Below the pieces are notes generated by a model. The model was not told the origin of the DNA, did no database searches, and saw only the letters and a list, made by a program, of their open reading frames with translations. 64,000 nucleotides of DNA, from NCBI GenBank assembly GCA_003576745.1, contig QEVR01000002.1:361884-425883 (forward strand). Reading direction: 5' to 3'. A program made the position numbers and the translations under genes. Origin of the DNA: Candidatus Uhrbacteria bacterium (GTDB taxonomy: Bacteria; Patescibacteriota; Patescibacteriia; 2-12-FULL-60-25). This document shows positions 15,310 through 61,351 of this stretch, piece after piece. Position 1 is the first letter of the stretch; each line of letters opens with the position of its first letter.

Positions 15310-15462
15310 AGACACGGATCGAGGGCTAAGGGAAACGGGTTTCGGGTTTCGGGGAAGATTGTGCTCCCCTACGCACCACGTCCTACAGGGCGCGGCATGC
15401 CGCGCTCCTACATCCTACTCCCTGTTCCTCATCCTACGCCCCACGTCCTCCCTACTCCCTAC
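15310..15462. repeat. composite intergenic repeat, copy 2
   Basis: Contains GGGCTAAGGGAAACGGG, TTTCGGGGAAGATTGTGCTCCCC (hairpin core variant, read in two parts), CTACGCACCACGTCCTAC, a near-palindrome around GCGCGGCATGCCGCGC shared with the copy at 45.2 kb, and TCCTACTCCC words. Lies between converging transcription units. Confidence 0.75.
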
Positions 15463-45109: not shown

Positions 45110-45415
45110 TATTGCGGGTTCGGTCGTGAAGTGGTTACAGGGTTCAGGGTTCAGGGTTCAGGGTTCAGGGTTCAGGGTTCAGGTAGAATTATGCACCCCC
45201 TACGCAACGACGTCCTACAGGGCGCGGCATGCCGCGCCCTACATCCTACTCCCCACTCCCTACGCCTATTCCGCATCCTACGCACCACGTCCTACGTACT
45301 TTTCGCATACTGCATCCCGCTTACCACATGACCCATGGCTCACGCCCTACGACCTATACGTCCTACGCAACTACGCAACCTTACTCCCCGCCCCCGACAC
45401 TTGCCAAAAAGTCCG
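45110..45415. repeat. composite intergenic repeat, copy 8, with tandem 7-mer
   Basis: Begins with six perfect tandem copies of GGTTCAG (45141-45182), then GTAGAATTATGCACCCCC, CTACGCAACGACGTCC, a 22-bp perfect palindrome centred at 45229/45230, then ACTCCCCACTCCC, CGCACCACGTCCTACG and CTACGCAACTACGCAACC. No gene is supported. Confidence 0.8.
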
Positions 45416-52424: not shown

Positions 52425-52610
52425 ACGGGTTACGGAGAAATTGCAGATAAGAGCTGTTGGCAATGAGCAATGGGGAATTCTTGAAAAGAAACAAGTGAGT
52501 GGTTCGTAGTGAGTGGTTACGGGTTTCGGGCGCAAACGCATGGCGCAAGGCTCACGGCGCACCCCGCCCGCACGACTCACGACCTATGTCCTTCGCGACT
52601 CCCCCTCCCT
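52425..52610. repeat. composite intergenic repeat, copy 10 (runs into tsaD)
   Basis: GGGTTACGGGTTACGG, AAAGAAACAAGTGAGTGG, TTCGTAGTGAGTGGTTACGG and ACTCACGACC words. Positions ~52486-52535 match the 80-bp inverted-repeat arms at 55844 and 56938 with a few changes. The right part overlaps the last ~20 codons of tsaD. Confidence 0.72.
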
Positions 52611-53676
52611 CGCAACCCAAATCCAATCCGGGTTCCGCATCCAGATTCTTCCAGTCATCCCTTTCCCCTTTTATGATACGCCATGCGCCGGCCGCGGCGA
52701 TCATGGCCGCATTGTCCGTGGAATATACCACGGGCGTTCGAAGCAATCGGATGTTCGGATGATGCACCTTCATAGTCTCCGCCATATCCTCCCGAAGTTT
52801 CCGATTCGCCGAGACACCGCCGACAATCATGAGCGCATTGACGCGATGCAAATCCAGTGCCCGCATGGTCTTGGCAACCAGCACGTCCACAATAGCCTGC
52901 TCTATAGATGCCGCGAGATCGTAAAGCGTTTTTCCCTTTACACGCTTGTCGCCGACCAGCCGCCGAACATGGGATTTCAACCCGGAAAAACTCATATCGA
53001 GACTCGGATCATGCATCATGGGACGCGGCATGTCATAGGCGGAAACATTCCCTTTCTCCGCAAGCTTCGATAGTTTCGGACCGCCCGGATATTCGAGTCC
53101 CAGCAATTTAGCCGTCTTATCGAATGCTTCCCCCGCCGCATCGTCGCGCGTGGAACCGAGGATTCGATAGGCTCCGAAATCCTTCATGAGTACGATTTCC
53201 GTATGTCCGCCTGAAACGAGCAACGCAAGCATGGGAAATCGCCACCTCCTCCGATTCTCCGGTAATAGCCACGCGCTCGCCAGATGGCCTTCAAGATGAT
53301 TTACGCCCACCATGGGCGCATCCGTCATATACGCAAGCGTTTGCGCGGCCGTAATACCCACGCGGAGCGCGGTGGCGAGGCCCGGTCCTTTGGTGACGGC
53401 GATGGCGTCGAAGGATGCAAGCGGCTTCGATCCGAGCTGGGACGTGAGGAGCGCAATCACCTCCGGCACATGCGAGCGCGCCGCGACTTCCGGGACCACG
53501 CCGCCGTATTTGGCGTGGATTGCGACTTGGCTGGAAACCGCATGCCTCAAGATGCGTACCTTCGGAACCGCGCCTCGCGGGTCAACCGAAAGAATCGCGA
53601 CGGAGGTTTCGTCGCAGCTGGTTTCGATCCCGAGGATGCGGAACGGTTTCGAGCGTGTTAGCCTTTTTGCGGGCAT
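52552..53676 (-). CDS. tsaD: tRNA N6-adenosine threonylcarbamoyltransferase TsaD
   Basis: 374 aa from ATG 53676. The Kae1/TsaD fold is marked by GIETSCDETSVAIL, the metal-binding NHLEGHLAS (His127, His131), LLVSGGHTEIVL, and GGVSANRKLREDM near the C-terminal half with the last metal ligand Asp in YSTDNAAMIAAAG. It transfers threonylcarbamoyl to A37 of tRNAs. Typical length is ~335-345 aa; the last ~20 residues (CEGGGVAKDIGRESCGRG) come from repeat sequence beyond the normal family end. The rhodanese gene is 25 bp upstream and tsaE downstream. Confidence 0.96.
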   Translation of the reverse strand: MPAKRLTRSKPFRILGIETSCDETSVAILSVDPRGAVPKVRILRHAVSSQVAIHAKYGGVVPEVAARSHVPEVIALLTSQLGSKPLASFDAIAVTKGPGLATALRVGITAAQTLAYMTDAPMVGVNHLEGHLASAWLLPENRRRWRFPMLALLVSGGHTEIVLMKDFGAYRILGSTRDDAAGEAFDKTAKLLGLEYPGGPKLSKLAEKGNVSAYDMPRPMMHDPSLDMSFSGLKSHVRRLVGDKRVKGKTLYDLAASIEQAIVDVLVAKTMRALDLHRVNALMIVGGVSANRKLREDMAETMKVHHPNIRLLRTPVVYSTDNAAMIAAAGAWRIIKGERDDWKNLDAEPGLDLGCEGGGVAKDIGRESCGRGAP

Positions 53677-54211: not shown

Positions 54212-54286
54212 GGCCCGTTCGTCTAGTGGTTAGGACGTCAGGTTTTCATCCTGAAAACAGGGGTTCGATTCCCCTACGGGCTGCCA
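54212..54286 (+). tRNA. tRNA-Glu(UUC)
   Basis: Acceptor GGCCCGT pairs with ACGGGCT (G1-U72 wobble), discriminator G, encoded CCA. Anticodon arm TCAGG-TTTTCAT-CCTGA gives TTC; T arm AGGGG-TTCGATT-CCCCT. Confidence 0.97.
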
Positions 54287-55255: not shown

Positions 55256-55675
55256 TTATCCGCGATATGCCGTTATCCGCGGTTCCGCCTCGAGAACCCG
55301 CTTCACGGTGAAACCATGATACAAATTCCCCTGGCAGAGATATACGAGAAGATGCCGTTGCACCCTTCCGGCGAAGGCGTCGAGCGCCGATGCCGTGGGG
55401 AGCATGGGCATGATTGCGCCTTTTATGAGGGGACGGAACGGGCATTCCGCATCCGGAATGCCGAGCTGTGCGAGCAGGTCGTCGAGCGGAACGCAGATGC
55501 GCCCGAATTCTTCATGACTGAACACGCATCCATGCTTTTTTTCCCACGCGCGCCCGCTCATGACGTATACCGGGAAGTGGCCTATTGGGAACAAGACATG
55601 CCACACGGAGCTTTCCAAAACTTCTGCGATCAAGCGTTTCTCCTCGCAAGGGTTAAAAACGTGCCCGATAAACAT
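55256..55675 (-). CDS. hypothetical protein, 139 aa
   Basis: I do not recognise the family. ATG 55675 gives MFIGHVFNPCEEKRLIAEVL; a TTG start 24 bp earlier is possible, but that TTG belongs to a TTGACA that may be part of a promoter. The protein looks like a small soluble alpha/beta domain with HVLFPIGHFPVYVMSGRAW and RRHLLVYLCQGNLYHG-like strands (read QRHLLVYLCQGNLYHG). Four cysteines are present without zinc spacing. A terminator follows 10 bp after the stop, which supports it as a gene. Confidence 0.65.
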   Translation of the reverse strand: MFIGHVFNPCEEKRLIAEVLESSVWHVLFPIGHFPVYVMSGRAWEKKHGCVFSHEEFGRICVPLDDLLAQLGIPDAECPFRPLIKGAIMPMLPTASALDAFAGRVQRHLLVYLCQGNLYHGFTVKRVLEAEPRITAYRG

Positions 55676-55734
55676 GTGTCGAAAATCGAAAAATGTCAAG
55701 GGCCTTTAGGAAGCTTAGAGGGTGCGGAACAGGA

Positions 55735-55923
55735 AGTCGGGAGTAGGGGGAAGAGAACGTAGTTGCGTAGGACATGGGGCGTAGGGCGTGAGCCCCGAAC
55801 CCTGTGCCCTATGCCCCGTGCCCTATGACCTTGGGTCCGTAAGATTGTAGGTTCGTAGTCTGTAAGCCATGCGCCCCGTAACCCGTAACCACTCACTACG
55901 AACCGCTCACTTGTTTCTTTTCA
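55735..55923. repeat. composite intergenic repeat, copy 11 (inverted), with 80-bp arm
   Basis: On the minus strand it reads AAAGAAACAAGTGAGCGG, TTCGTAGTGAGTGGTTACGG, GTTACGGGGCGCATGG, AACCTACAATCTTACGG, CATAGGGCACGGGGCATAGG. Positions 55844-55923 are the exact reverse complement of 56938-57017 (80 of 80). Confidence 0.85.
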
Positions 55924-55996
55924 CACATTCCCTTGACGATACCTCTGTGCCGCTGTAGCATGCCCGTCCATTCGCACTTTTGCCAAGGGAGATCGC

Positions 55997-56161
55997 ATGT
56001 TTCAAGTACCGTTTCCCATCGATACGCAAAACGCAACGGACGATGACGAAGACGACGAAACCGGTTTCGACGTGGACTGGGCCGCCCTCGCGCGGCGCAT
56101 CCTCGAAGCCGTACCGGATCACTGTCCACGCGACACCCGTCCTCCCGACAGCGCGCGCTGA
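55997..56161 (+). CDS. small acidic protein, 54 aa
   Basis: ATG 55997 follows AAGGGA at a good distance (7 nt). The product begins MFQVPFPIDTQNAT, continues with an acidic run (DDDEDDETGFDVD) and a helix WAALARRILEAVPDHC. It ends at TGA 56161 and a strong terminator follows 33 bp later. The length is below the usual annotation cut-off, but the ribosome site, frame composition and terminator support it. Function unknown; the acidic patch suggests binding to a basic partner. It sits inside the inverted-repeat-bounded segment. Confidence 0.55.
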   Translation: MFQVPFPIDTQNATDDDEDDETGFDVDWAALARRILEAVPDHCPRDTRPPDSAR

Positions 56162-56194
56162 CCAAGCTTTTGTGTCCGCCCGCCCTCTTTCTCA

Positions 56195-56223
56195 AACCGC
56201 GTGCCCCTTGCACGCGGTTTTGC
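56195..56223 (+). terminator. terminator of the small acidic protein gene
   Basis: AAACCGCGTGC-CCCTT-GCACGCGGTTTT, 11-bp stem. Confidence 0.85.
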
Positions 56224-56293
56224 ATAAGGACAAATGATTGACGATGGCACGCGGTATGTGGTAGAGACGTATATCTTCTATTACACTCCCTGT

Positions 56294-56905
56294 ATGACAA
56301 AACCTTCTTCCATCGCCACTGCCGCTCTTGTTATCGCATTTGTGATTTTCGGCATCGGGCTTTGGGCAGGCTATCGCCTATTTGCACCCGCGTCCGTTCA
56401 AACGGAGCGCGTAAACGCACAAATAATTCTGACCGCGCTCCATGACCGCGGATTTCTTGTTACACAAACCTATCTGTTCGATACGCCGGTGAGCATTGAC
56501 CGGTCCACCGGAAGTGCTTTCAAGGATTTTTTCTTCGGTCAGACCATTGAAGCGCGCGGTACCATGGAAGTGAACCTCGGCATCGATCTTTCACGGGTTT
56601 CAACGGATGATGTTACGGTGGATCCCAATGCTGGCACGGTCACCGTACGCATTCCGAAAGCGACGCTTTTCAATTCACGCCTCGTTGGACCTATCGAGCT
56701 CAAGAACAAGGAAGGCATTCTGAAACGTCTTCTGAATTCGGACGACGGGTATAATGACGCGCTTGCAAAGCTCTCGCAGGCTGCGGAAGAAGCTGCAAAC
56801 CGTCAGGAGCTTTTGGACCGCGCGAATGAACGTGCAAAAGAAGATGTATCGCGGCTCCTCGGATACGTCGCGGAAAACAAAAAAATTATCGTGGAGTTCG
56901 AATGA
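56294..56905 (+). CDS. DUF4230 membrane-anchored protein
   Basis: 203 aa from ATG 56294, chosen because the anchor (IATAALVIAFVIFGIGLWAGY, ~7-27) follows at once. DUF4230 features: a short lead to ILTALHDRGFLVTQTYLF, then GTMEVNLGIDLSRVSTDDV, TVTVRIPKATLFNSRLVGP and a C-terminal amphipathic helix (AEEAANRQELLDRANERAKE) ending in NKKIIVEFE. The domain is expected outside the membrane; its function is not established. It is the main gene of the segment bounded by 80-bp inverted repeats. Confidence 0.85.
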   Translation: MTKPSSIATAALVIAFVIFGIGLWAGYRLFAPASVQTERVNAQIILTALHDRGFLVTQTYLFDTPVSIDRSTGSAFKDFFFGQTIEARGTMEVNLGIDLSRVSTDDVTVDPNAGTVTVRIPKATLFNSRLVGPIELKNKEGILKRLLNSDDGYNDALAKLSQAAEEAANRQELLDRANERAKEDVSRLLGYVAENKKIIVEFE

Positions 56906-56909
56906 TGAG

Positions 56910-57017
56910 CTGTGGGCTAAGAGCAATGGGGAATTATTGAAAAGAAACAAGTGAGCGGTTCGTAGTGAGTGGTTACGGGTTACGGGGCGCATGGCTTACA
57001 GACTACGAACCTACAAT
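56910..57017. repeat. composite intergenic repeat, copy 12, with 80-bp arm
   Basis: Starts GAGCTGTGGGCTAAGAGC, GCAATGGGGAATTATTG, then the 80-bp arm 56938-57017 that is inverted at 55844-55923. It separates converging genes. Confidence 0.85.
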
Positions 57018-57250: not shown

Positions 57251-58687
57251 TTACGAATGCGTGATTACGGGCGTGCCCACATCGGCCCAGTTGTAAATCC
57301 ATTCCGCATCGGCTTTTCCCGCATTAATGCAGCCATGACTCATGCGATACCCGAAATTATTGTGCCAATAGGCGTAGTGGATGTAGAACGGACCGAAAAT
57401 ACGCAAGTTATATTTGACGTTCGGAAGGAAATAATTATCGGGATTCCCCGGACCATATATCCACTTGTAATCTTTCACGAAGATTTTTTCCAGCACCGTT
57501 GTTTCGAGTTCGGGCGTGGGATATTTTTTGAGCCCTGACGAAATCAAAAACGTCCGCGCGATGCGTCCGCGCTCATACGCATAGAGCCTCTGCTCGGTTA
57601 AATTCACCTCGATGAATTTTTCCTCCATGCGCGGCGATACCACCACCGGTGCCACCGCAACCGTAGCGAGCTCTTTGCCGCCTCCTGCCCGCGTAATTTG
57701 CGCCATGGACAGCCCGCCGCGATACGTGGGATCGTGCAGAAGATATGCGCCGAACGGCGTACCGAACATGTCAACGATGCGAACCTCCGGCGGCGTACCG
57801 CCATTGCCCGCAATCGCCAATTCATCGACCCCATCCCCGTCAAAGTCATATGCGGCGAGCGTTACGCCGGCGCGCCAGCTATCGGGAAATGGCTGGAATT
57901 CCTTTTGGAGTTCCGCCCCGCCGTCCACGGGAAGAAAACGCCGGACAAAAGGTTTCTGCCAGCTTTCAATGCCAACAACGATCTGCGGGCCTGACGGCGT
58001 ACGCATGATGGCAAGCGTTATGCCGTCGCGCATGTTCTCGTCGAAAGCAAAAAAATCCATGCCGAGATTCTGCATGTCCTCATTAAAGATGCGCACATGC
58101 GGTCCTCCGCCCGGTCCCGGCGCCGTCACGATTTCCGCCTTGCCGTCGCCGTTAAGGTCATAAACGGCCACATGCGCGCCGCCTTGAAATTCTTTCTGAT
58201 AGGCATGCGCGCCGCCTTTGAGAACCTGAATGCCTTCGGCATTAAAAATATTGATCTGCGGCGCAATGCCCGGTCCCGGCGCCGTCACGATTTCCGTCTT
58301 GCCGTCGCCGTCCATATCCCCGGCGGCAACGCGCACGCCGCCCTTGAACCATTCCGGATACGCACGAAAGCTTTTGAGAAGTTCGCCTCCCGAAGAATAG
58401 ATGCGCACTTCCGGGCTTCGATTCGGACCTGCCCCCACAATGAGCTCCTCCACGCCGTCACCGTCCATATCGCCGGCCGCGAGAAAAGCGCCCTGCACGT
58501 GCGCAGCCTCGAACGTGGAAAACCGCTGGCGTTCCGTAAAGGCCGATCGCCATAAACTCACCTCGGCCGTACGCGCATGCTCCGGACGCACGGGCACAGG
58601 CCGTATGGCCGCGGCTCGGACAGGCGGCATTCCGGATACAAACAACGCAAGCAGGAGAAGAGGGCCGATGATAGCGGTTCGCTTCAT
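57251..58687 (-). CDS. secreted FG-GAP/VCBS-repeat L,D-transpeptidase
   Basis: 478 aa from ATG 58687, where a signal peptide begins (IIGPLLLLALFVSGMPPVRA). Residues ~45-330 hold four FG-GAP/VCBS calcium-type repeats (AAGDMDGDGVEELIVGAGP, GDMDGDGKTEIVTAPGP, YDLNGDGKAEIVTAPGP, YDFDGDGVDELAIAG), likely a beta-propeller. The C-terminal YkuD domain (~350-478) ends with HYAYWHNNFGYRMSHGCIN; Cys453 is the catalytic nucleophile in the SHGC motif. YkuD enzymes make 3-3 crosslinks in peptidoglycan or attach proteins to it. The propeller may position it in the wall. A 72-aa membrane gene follows. Confidence 0.93.
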   Translation of the reverse strand: MKRTAIIGPLLLLALFVSGMPPVRAAAIRPVPVRPEHARTAEVSLWRSAFTERQRFSTFEAAHVQGAFLAAGDMDGDGVEELIVGAGPNRSPEVRIYSSGGELLKSFRAYPEWFKGGVRVAAGDMDGDGKTEIVTAPGPGIAPQINIFNAEGIQVLKGGAHAYQKEFQGGAHVAVYDLNGDGKAEIVTAPGPGGGPHVRIFNEDMQNLGMDFFAFDENMRDGITLAIMRTPSGPQIVVGIESWQKPFVRRFLPVDGGAELQKEFQPFPDSWRAGVTLAAYDFDGDGVDELAIAGNGGTPPEVRIVDMFGTPFGAYLLHDPTYRGGLSMAQITRAGGGKELATVAVAPVVVSPRMEEKFIEVNLTEQRLYAYERGRIARTFLISSGLKKYPTPELETTVLEKIFVKDYKWIYGPGNPDNYFLPNVKYNLRIFGPFYIHYAYWHNNFGYRMSHGCINAGKADAEWIYNWADVGTPVITHS

Positions 58688-58753
58688 GATAGAGGCCAGT
58701 ATAGCTGGTTTGACAGACTCCGCAACGAAAAAAGAATGATTCCGTATGCTACC

Positions 58754-61351
58754 ATGAGGCCCATGCTGACACGACAAATTCCTCCCCGAGAACTGGCAAC
58801 GCTTCCCGTCCAGGCCGCCCTGAAAAAGCTGGAAACGGACAAAAAAGGACTTCCCGAAGAAGAGCGCGAGAACAGGCGCGTCCGATTCGGCTCCAATGAC
58901 CTTCCGCAAAAAAAAGGGACGCCGATTCTTGTTGTCTTTTTGAAGCAATTCACGAGCCCCTTCGTTTTTTTGCTCATCGGCGTCACCGTGGTTTCCCTGT
59001 ATTTACGCGAATACAGTGACGCCATCGTGATTGCCGCCGTTCTCCTTTTTAATGCGACGGTGGGGACCTTTCAGTCCGCGCGGGCCAGCAAAGCCCTGAA
59101 AGCTCTCTCGCAAGGCATTGTGTACAATGCCCGCTGTCTCGTAGAAGGAACGAGCCGCGCCTGCGACATTCGCGAGATTGTGCCCGGCGACGTCATCCAG
59201 CTCGGCGCCGGAGACCGCATTCCCGCGGACGGGCGCTGGCTTGCGGCGAATAATCTCCGGGTGGACGAATCGAGCCTTACCGGAGAATCCGTATCGCATT
59301 CAAAAACCGCCGAGAGCATTGCCGTAAAGCCCAATGCGATTGCGGCGGATATTCGCAATGCGGGGTATGCGGGGACAAACGTCGTCGCCGGTTCCGGCCT
59401 TTTGCTGGTTACGACTATCGGAGAGCAAACCGAGGTCGGACGAATCGCGGCGAGTCTCACGGAAGCCCGGCCCGAGGCGCCGCTCATTCGGCGCGTCCGG
59501 ACGCTGGCGCATCAGGTGCTCATCGTGGTGACGATCGCCGCCATTCTATTGCTCTTGAGCTCCGTTGCCTCCGGCGGACCTATTCTGCCGAATGTCACGC
59601 TCATCCTCGCCCTCATCGTATCGGTGATTCCCGAAGGCCTGCCCATCGTGCTCACCGTGGTTCTTGCGCGCGGCGTGTGGGACATGAGCCGGAAAAACGC
59701 CATCGTTCGCAATCTCGAATCCGTGGAGGCGCTGGGAGGCGTGGACATTATCTTCACGGACAAAACAGGCACGCTCACGCAAAATGAATTGCATCTGAAA
59801 CAGGCCGTGCTTGCCGACGGAACCACCGTGCATATCGAGGACGGGTCTGTTCCCCGGCCTCATACAAACGGAAATGCCGAACACGCGGCGCGGTTTGCGG
59901 AAATCCTTGCCGCCGTGGCCGATCCGGGCGCCGGCATGGATACCCGCCTCTCAAGCATTGACCCCATCGACCGGGCGCTCCTCGAGCTCCCAAGAATGCT
60001 TTCCATCAAAAGCCCGGTTCAGTATTCGGAACGGCCCTTTGACGGAAAGCGCCGAACGCGGGCCGTAACCACGACCTTGAGTACAAAGGAGGACATTGCC
60101 ATTTTGGCCGGCAGTCCCGAACAAATTCTCGATGCATGCGGAGGCGTGGATACAGAGACGACGCAGGCGATGAATACCATGACGTCCGGGGGCCTCCGGG
60201 TCATCGCCTTTGCGGAAGCCCCGGGCAACAACCTCGAACGCGCCGACGGCGCCTGGATATATGCGGGTATGGTGGGGCTCCGCGACAATCCCCGGCTCGA
60301 AGCGAAGGATGCCCTCGCCTGGTGCCGCAAACACAATATCAACGTGATTATGGTCACAGGCGATCATCCGGAAACCGCCTATGCCATTGCGCATGAACTC
60401 GGCATGACTCGGTCGCGGAGCCAGGTTGTCTTGGGAGAGGAATTGATGCGGCTCGAAGACAAAGAACTCTCTAATGCCCTCGCCTCCCTCAAGGTGATTG
60501 CCCGCGCAACGCCGGAAACCAAAATGCGCCTTATCCACGTTTCGCGCAAAGACGGCTCTGTTATTGCCATGACGGGCGACGGCGTGAACGACGCGCCGGC
60601 CCTCCATGCCGCGGATGTCGGCATTGCCATGGGGAAGAGCGGCACCGACGTGGCCCGCGGAGCCGCAGATCTTGTTCTCGTGGACGATAATTTTGCCACC
60701 ATCGTTTCCGCCATCCAGGAAGGAAGATCCGTGGTGGGAAATATCGAAAAAGTCGTCACCTATCTTTTTGCCACTTCGAGCGCCGAGCTCGTTCTTATTT
60801 CCATGGCGATGTTCTTCTATCTTCCGACGCCGCTTTTGGCGGCGCAAATATTGTGGCTGAATCTGGTGACCGACGGATTTTTGGATATCGCCCTTGCCAT
60901 GGAACCCATGCACGGCGGACACACGCGGCCCCCGCGCGGACGCCTGATCAGCAAAAGAGCATGGACGCGTATTGCCCTCCTGGGAGCGTCCATGGGGATT
61001 ATCGGCATCGGCGTGTATGCATATGCCCTGAATACCAATGGCGACACGCTTCGATATTCCGTAACCCTTCTCGCCATGTCCGTTATGCAGTGGTGGAGCG
61101 CCTGGAGCAATCGCTCGTCAACAACCTCCATCTTCCGGCTCAATCCATTCGGAAATATCCCCCTCATTATCGCAACCGGCATCGTGCTCTTCCTTATGAC
61201 CGTGGCCCTGTACGGCGGACCGCTCTCGTCCCTTCTGCGCATCGGGCCGCTTCCCCTTTCCACATGGCTCTGGATTGTCCCGCTCGCGGCCATTCCCGTT
61301 GTGGTGGACGAATTTTGGAAGCTCGCGCATCGAAGAACGGTAAAGGCATAA
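58754..61351 (+). CDS. cation-transporting P-type ATPase (P2, Ca2+-type)
   Basis: 865 aa from ATG 58754 (ATG 58763 also possible); the frame upstream overlaps the divergent gene. An N-terminal cation ATPase domain (~5-70), TGES (SSLTGESVSH) actuator loop, M4 motif VIPEGLPIVLTVVLARG, phosphorylation site DKTGTLTQNE, KGSPE-like nucleotide region, hinge GDGVNDAPALHAADVGIAMG, and M6 LVTDGFLDIALAMEP are present with about ten helices. The PEGLP motif fits P2 (SERCA/PMCA-like) pumps exporting Ca2+ or a related ion. Divergent from the L,D-transpeptidase gene with a 66-bp gap. Confidence 0.93.
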   Translation: MRPMLTRQIPPRELATLPVQAALKKLETDKKGLPEEERENRRVRFGSNDLPQKKGTPILVVFLKQFTSPFVFLLIGVTVVSLYLREYSDAIVIAAVLLFNATVGTFQSARASKALKALSQGIVYNARCLVEGTSRACDIREIVPGDVIQLGAGDRIPADGRWLAANNLRVDESSLTGESVSHSKTAESIAVKPNAIAADIRNAGYAGTNVVAGSGLLLVTTIGEQTEVGRIAASLTEARPEAPLIRRVRTLAHQVLIVVTIAAILLLLSSVASGGPILPNVTLILALIVSVIPEGLPIVLTVVLARGVWDMSRKNAIVRNLESVEALGGVDIIFTDKTGTLTQNELHLKQAVLADGTTVHIEDGSVPRPHTNGNAEHAARFAEILAAVADPGAGMDTRLSSIDPIDRALLELPRMLSIKSPVQYSERPFDGKRRTRAVTTTLSTKEDIAILAGSPEQILDACGGVDTETTQAMNTMTSGGLRVIAFAEAPGNNLERADGAWIYAGMVGLRDNPRLEAKDALAWCRKHNINVIMVTGDHPETAYAIAHELGMTRSRSQVVLGEELMRLEDKELSNALASLKVIARATPETKMRLIHVSRKDGSVIAMTGDGVNDAPALHAADVGIAMGKSGTDVARGAADLVLVDDNFATIVSAIQEGRSVVGNIEKVVTYLFATSSAELVLISMAMFFYLPTPLLAAQILWLNLVTDGFLDIALAMEPMHGGHTRPPRGRLISKRAWTRIALLGASMGIIGIGVYAYALNTNGDTLRYSVTLLAMSVMQWWSAWSNRSSTTSIFRLNPFGNIPLIIATGIVLFLMTVALYGGPLSSLLRIGPLPLSTWLWIVPLAAIPVVVDEFWKLAHRRTVKA

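Follow-up and report, generated by a model that had tools for sequence, protein, structure and literature searches.

The two perfect inverted arms that bound a DUF4230 gene in this genome are probably two copies of a species-specific, dispersed intergenic repeat, which by chance came to lie in opposite orientation around a small gene pair; the copies would owe their form to slippage growth and homology-driven copying, and not to a programmed switch. Both arms are members of a family of dispersed, degenerate, non-coding intergenic repeats whose period is 7 nt.

In the window, i.e., the whole analyzed stretch of 64,000 nucleotides (C3:361884-425883), the left arm (55844..55923, minus strand) and the right arm (56938..57017, plus strand) are exact reverse complements at 80/80 positions, which cannot be chance, and form a part of a longer inverted pair of 89 nt with 97% identity. 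Sequence comparison bears out that they enclose 1,014 bp, and the content proposed for this segment, that is, a DUF4230 gene (56234..56905, plus strand; PF14014, E 1.8e-15) preceded by a 54-aa acidic ORF with a stem-loop behind it, is recovered as well. The left arm lies within a heptad element delineated by lag-7 periodicity (55715..55932, minus strand, limits approximate), and in the fold of 55715-55860, G-rich and C-rich heptads pair to form a hairpin at ~55766-55828. A candidate sigma-70-like promoter, TTGACG-17-TAGCAT (55933..55961, plus strand), identified by a match to the consensus, of which three were found and 1.6 expected in shuffles, adjoins this element and precedes orf54, the 54-aa ORF (55997..56161, plus strand), which has a coding-like score. 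A search of 56 related genomes yielded no convincing relative of orf54, and it appears to be lineage-specific. The stem-loop AAACCGCGTGC..GCACGCGGTTTT (about 56194..56221, plus strand), read by eye from the sequence, is the probable terminator of orf54, as had been suggested, but it is not among the sites listed by the terminator scan, for which 5 T are required.

The right heptad element (56907..57017, plus strand) takes up the greater part of the gap in which DUF4230 and orf72 converge, and it is shorter (cut) compared to the left one. A third copy (52451..52616, plus strand) overlaps the 3' end of tsaD, so that repeat sequence (heptad element, 52482-52616) encodes the C-terminal residues of the tsaD ORF as listed. 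Transcription of the left neighbor gene (55256-55699, minus strand) leads away from the segment, and the right neighbors, orf72 and YkuD, both on the minus strand, are the only ones pointing into it. The protein encoded at 57251-58948, the convergent neighbor of DUF4230 that is kept in relatives, has FG-GAP repeats and, after them, a YkuD L,D-transpeptidase domain. No known RNA families were found in the repeats, the tRNA at 54212-54283 being the only match above the gathering score.

With the arm as a query, the genome (1.06 Mb, four contigs) gives 49 matches, found on all four contigs. Family statistics were collected from the window, ten 20-kb stretches and individual loci, 264 kb in total. 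Lag autocorrelation in this sample shows the 7-nt periodicity expected of heptameric intergenic repeats, with 58 segments at lag 7, 23 at lag 14, and zero to nine at other lags from 4 to 13. The elements are heptamer strings changing gradually along their length, e.g., ...AAGTGAG CGGTTCG TAGTGAG TGGTTAC GGGTTAC GGGGCGC ATGGCTT ACAGACT ACGAACC; tandem copies of a single unit are not the rule in the sample, most elements being degenerate strings of different heptamers, and the longest clean array in the window consists of seven copies of GGTTCAG (45133-45183). Two heptad elements, at 15375-15405 and 45207-45237, share, within the heptad string, a perfect palindrome rich in GC (GGGCGCGGCATGCCGCGCCC at 45207), and a similar one occurs in L026.

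The elements are over-represented in non-coding DNA: by a simple codon-model gene call and at a slightly different calling setting, 50 out of 58 are intergenic, i.e., overlap called genes by less than 40%, while genes cover ~75-93% of the sampled stretches. An element is present in ~31% of gaps of at least 80 bp in these stretches, and the median gap length is 370 bp with an element versus 119 bp without one. Whichever strand is read, 39 out of 41 merged elements begin G-rich and end C-rich (p about 8e-10), compared to 34 out of 60 element-free gaps; moreover, the elements and the 40 bp on either side of them contain 24 out of the 30 G4 motifs of the sample. The family 15-mer GTAACCACTCACTAC occurs 12 times in the genome, six times per strand, and is absent from all 40 other genomes of the taxonomic family; a 19-mer family pattern has no match in the GTDB collection, from which the studied genome itself may be left out, and a 17-mer family word has none in IMG/VR. 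The repeat family thus appears to be species-specific. Spread of the repeat between species was considered and rejected, given the absence of the tested family words from the other genomes searched.

Near-identical tracts are common to distant elements: 152 bp at 96.7% in L016 and L017 (contigs C4 and C2), 128 bp at 95.3% in L010 and L011 (C3 and C1), 115 bp at 97.4% in L086 and L017, two sites on C2, and 83 bp at 97.6% in a further C2/C3 element pair. The sequence-only reading had emphasized that the arms are identical while other copies of the family diverge. This stands insofar as no pair in the sample except the 80-bp arms is 100% identical, but identities of 95-98% are seen in other pairs over 83-152 bp, and the third copy (52451-52530) agrees with the right element at 92.5% over 80 bp. 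The arm pair would then be the top of a continuum of tract sharing. Among pairs with at least 88% identity over 60 bp, 14 are direct and 17 inverted, and the enrichment of pairs closer than 10 kb is not significant (p=0.13; odds ratio 2.2, weakly positive), these pair statistics covering about a quarter of the genome.

Mosaic breakpoints are observed at both ends of the 80-bp tract. Outward of the arm, the right element matches the copy at 52451 (GAGCTGTGGGCTAAGAGCAATGGGGAATT), and most of this sequence is missing from the left element; at the other end, the left element goes on as a family element, and the right one stops. Since the identical tract has mosaic borders on both sides, it was likely copied recently, or converted, between two already existing elements, in agreement with the proposed recent duplication or gene conversion. 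We infer this step, as well as the other copying events, from the sequence. According to the preferred explanation, heptamer slippage would make the elements grow, and they would spread by homology-driven copying or by conversion of one copy by another, whether direct or inverted; the latest such event here would have made an 80-bp tract of both elements identical, with the DUF4230 segment retaining its ancestral orientation. If the segment inverts at all, this would be an occasional side effect of RecA action on 80 bp and no programmed switch. What speaks against it is that the arms, just 1 kb apart, are also the only completely identical tract sampled; the arms could therefore reflect a local inverted-repeat process, either template switching or a conversion linked with flipping.

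Phase-variable invertible segments are bounded by inverted repeats, and the region studied here resembles them in its inverted arms around a small segment and the promoter-like site near one arm; it differs from them in the lack of an adjoining invertase in a search for serine recombinases, the origin of the arms from a dispersed family, and the orientation kept in relatives. RecA recombination between the exact 80-bp arms would flip orf54 and DUF4230, so that antisense read-in from orf72/YkuD would become sense. A RecA gene is present in the genome, and thus rare, low-level inversion is possible, and there is the promoter-like site immediately inward of the left arm. As an account of the locus, however, an invertible segment is very improbable. 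The gene-order comparison that had been suggested as a check shows DUF4230 facing YkuD convergently, as here, in two genomes of the same genus (G002 and G003) and two of the same family (G012 and G027), with no fixed inversion in any of the four, and the tsaD-DUF4230-YkuD-trmD order and strands in G003 are the same as here; the present orientation is therefore the one that gene order in the relatives marks as most likely ancestral. The supposed swap of the flanking gene reading into the segment does not fit the gene map, as the left neighbor reads away and only orf72/YkuD point in, so that inversion would not switch between two drivers. Many family copies elsewhere bound no comparable segment, and a search for serine-type recombinases found none beside the segment, the two detected lying far from it (C3:62610 and C1:39927). 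The two long serine recombinases found elsewhere in the genome (L138 and L139) have open frames of 550 and 576 codons and are perhaps from integrated elements. Repeat-mediated insertion, the other origin that had been put forward for the segment, is improbable in the case of DUF4230, given its ancestral neighborhood with YkuD; it is orf54 that is lineage-specific. Since no arms of this family surround DUF4230 in G003, G012, and G027, the genes were probably there first and acquired the elements around them later.

Near-identical dispersed copies on different contigs and in both orientations might also be expected if the arms came from a MITE- or REP-like mobile element inserted twice and moved by a transposase. 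REP/BIME elements with RAYT transposases are dispersed, short, intergenic, located near gene 3' ends and found in both orientations, and the elements described here share all these features; they differ in being 7-nt periodic, throughout their sequence, and in having no defined palindromic unit. Moreover, no Y1_Tnp (RAYT, PF01797) gene is found in the genome, and the shared tracts begin and end at many points that differ from pair to pair in the sampled elements, with no fixed ends apparent, which makes such an origin quite improbable. No reverse transcriptase gene was found in the genome either, and an origin of the repeats from RAYT or a reverse transcriptase was rejected, as neither gene was found. 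Least plausible of all is an assembly artefact, with the assembler having created the perfect inverted pair: repeats longer than the k-mer can mislead assemblers, and the genome is a four-contig draft, but the flanks differ on either side of both arms, the right element runs on into sequence common to the third copy, and the gene order agrees with that in relatives. A role as functional stem-loops, i.e., terminators or RNA stabilizers whose arms are conserved for that purpose, is compatible with the preferred explanation, although we consider it unlikely. Both arms contain a 10-bp stem (GGTTCGTAGT/ACTACGAACC), the elements are nearer to stop than to start codons (37 versus 86 nt, p=0.006), and heptad hairpins in relatives have z below -3 in 36% of cases; yet the elements show no preference among convergent, tandem, and divergent gaps (p=0.89), and the arms fold only slightly better than shuffles (z -1.6 to -2.0). 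A strong RNA fold of whole elements was looked for and not seen, as they fold no better than shuffles (median z -0.3). Slippage-born, conversion-spread filler settling mainly behind genes is the most economical reading, and the elements may have a mild role in termination.

The named kin of the DUF4230 protein come from Ca. Uhrbacteria and other Patescibacteria bins, and lag-7 intergenic segments with different words are present in several relatives: CAGTAGG and GAGTTAA arrays, some of them around DUF4230, in G002, AATAAAT-type and GTACTAG arrays in G032, and further arrays with other words in G028, G014, G043, and G047. Many of these arrays consist of a heptamer array followed by its own reverse complement, thus forming the hairpins scored above. 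Near-perfect long 7-nt-repeat hairpins with species-specific words are seen in L089 (177-272), L058 (2111-2208), and L090 (589-703). Most other genomes sampled, with a few kb to 47 kb read per genome, have few or no lag-7 segments. Over 930 kb of relatives, there are 50 segments at lag 7, compared to 22-31 at lags 6, 9, and 12, which are coding-type periods, and zero to three at lags 5, 10, 11, and 13. Tentatively, Ca. Uhrbacteria and related Patescibacteria might carry an undescribed class of intergenic elements in which the 7-nt phase and the purine-first, pyrimidine-last (inverted-array) layout persist while the words turn over completely between species, which would imply general copying or slippage in 7-nt steps and homology-driven exchange between sites.

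Among the simple repeats of bacteria, heptameric ones are over-represented, and it has been suggested that the polymerase footprint favors slippage by 7 (cited in Rehm et al., 2015, PMC4692102). Intergenic quadruplex-forming heptamers, GGGNATC and GGGGAYT, some of them inverted between convergent genes, have been described in Xanthomonas and Nostoc, and tandem heptanucleotides of Calothrix are mentioned in the same study (Rehm et al., 2015, PMC4692102). The elements described here are similar in the 7-nt period, intergenic location, genome-wide dispersal, occasional inversion between convergent genes, and variation of length and sequence between relatives, and their G-rich strand may form quadruplexes, given the G4 motifs in or near them. 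Unlike the tandem copies of one unit in Xanthomonas and Nostoc (PMC4692102), they are strings of changing heptamers, 50-300 bp long, forming mosaics common to several loci and running from G-rich to C-rich on both strands. Similarly, the TAACTGA heptamer direct repeats of Beggiatoaceae are intergenic and numerous (MacGregor, 2015, PMC4679880), but they represent one fixed word, found for the most part immediately upstream of start codons; in the family described here, the words vary and the elements are nearer to stop codons. We found no description of heptad repeats in Patescibacteria, or of the long, mosaic, strand-symmetric heptad form, in the open-access literature, the coverage of which is incomplete. 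Thus, heptameric intergenic repeats as such are known, and since the period, location, and G-richness are alike, the family described here is a variant of them, being long, degenerate, mosaic, strand-symmetric, and species-specific.

The arm pair cautions that perfect inverted repeats need not signal a switch. Patescibacteria have small genomes, yet here an element is found in ~30% of the larger sampled gaps and goes with a threefold greater gap length; the elements could be slippage by-products, selfish filler, or structural signals. The species-specific words combined with the constant 7-nt phase make the hypothesis of polymerase-related slippage by 7 nt testable across many related genomes.
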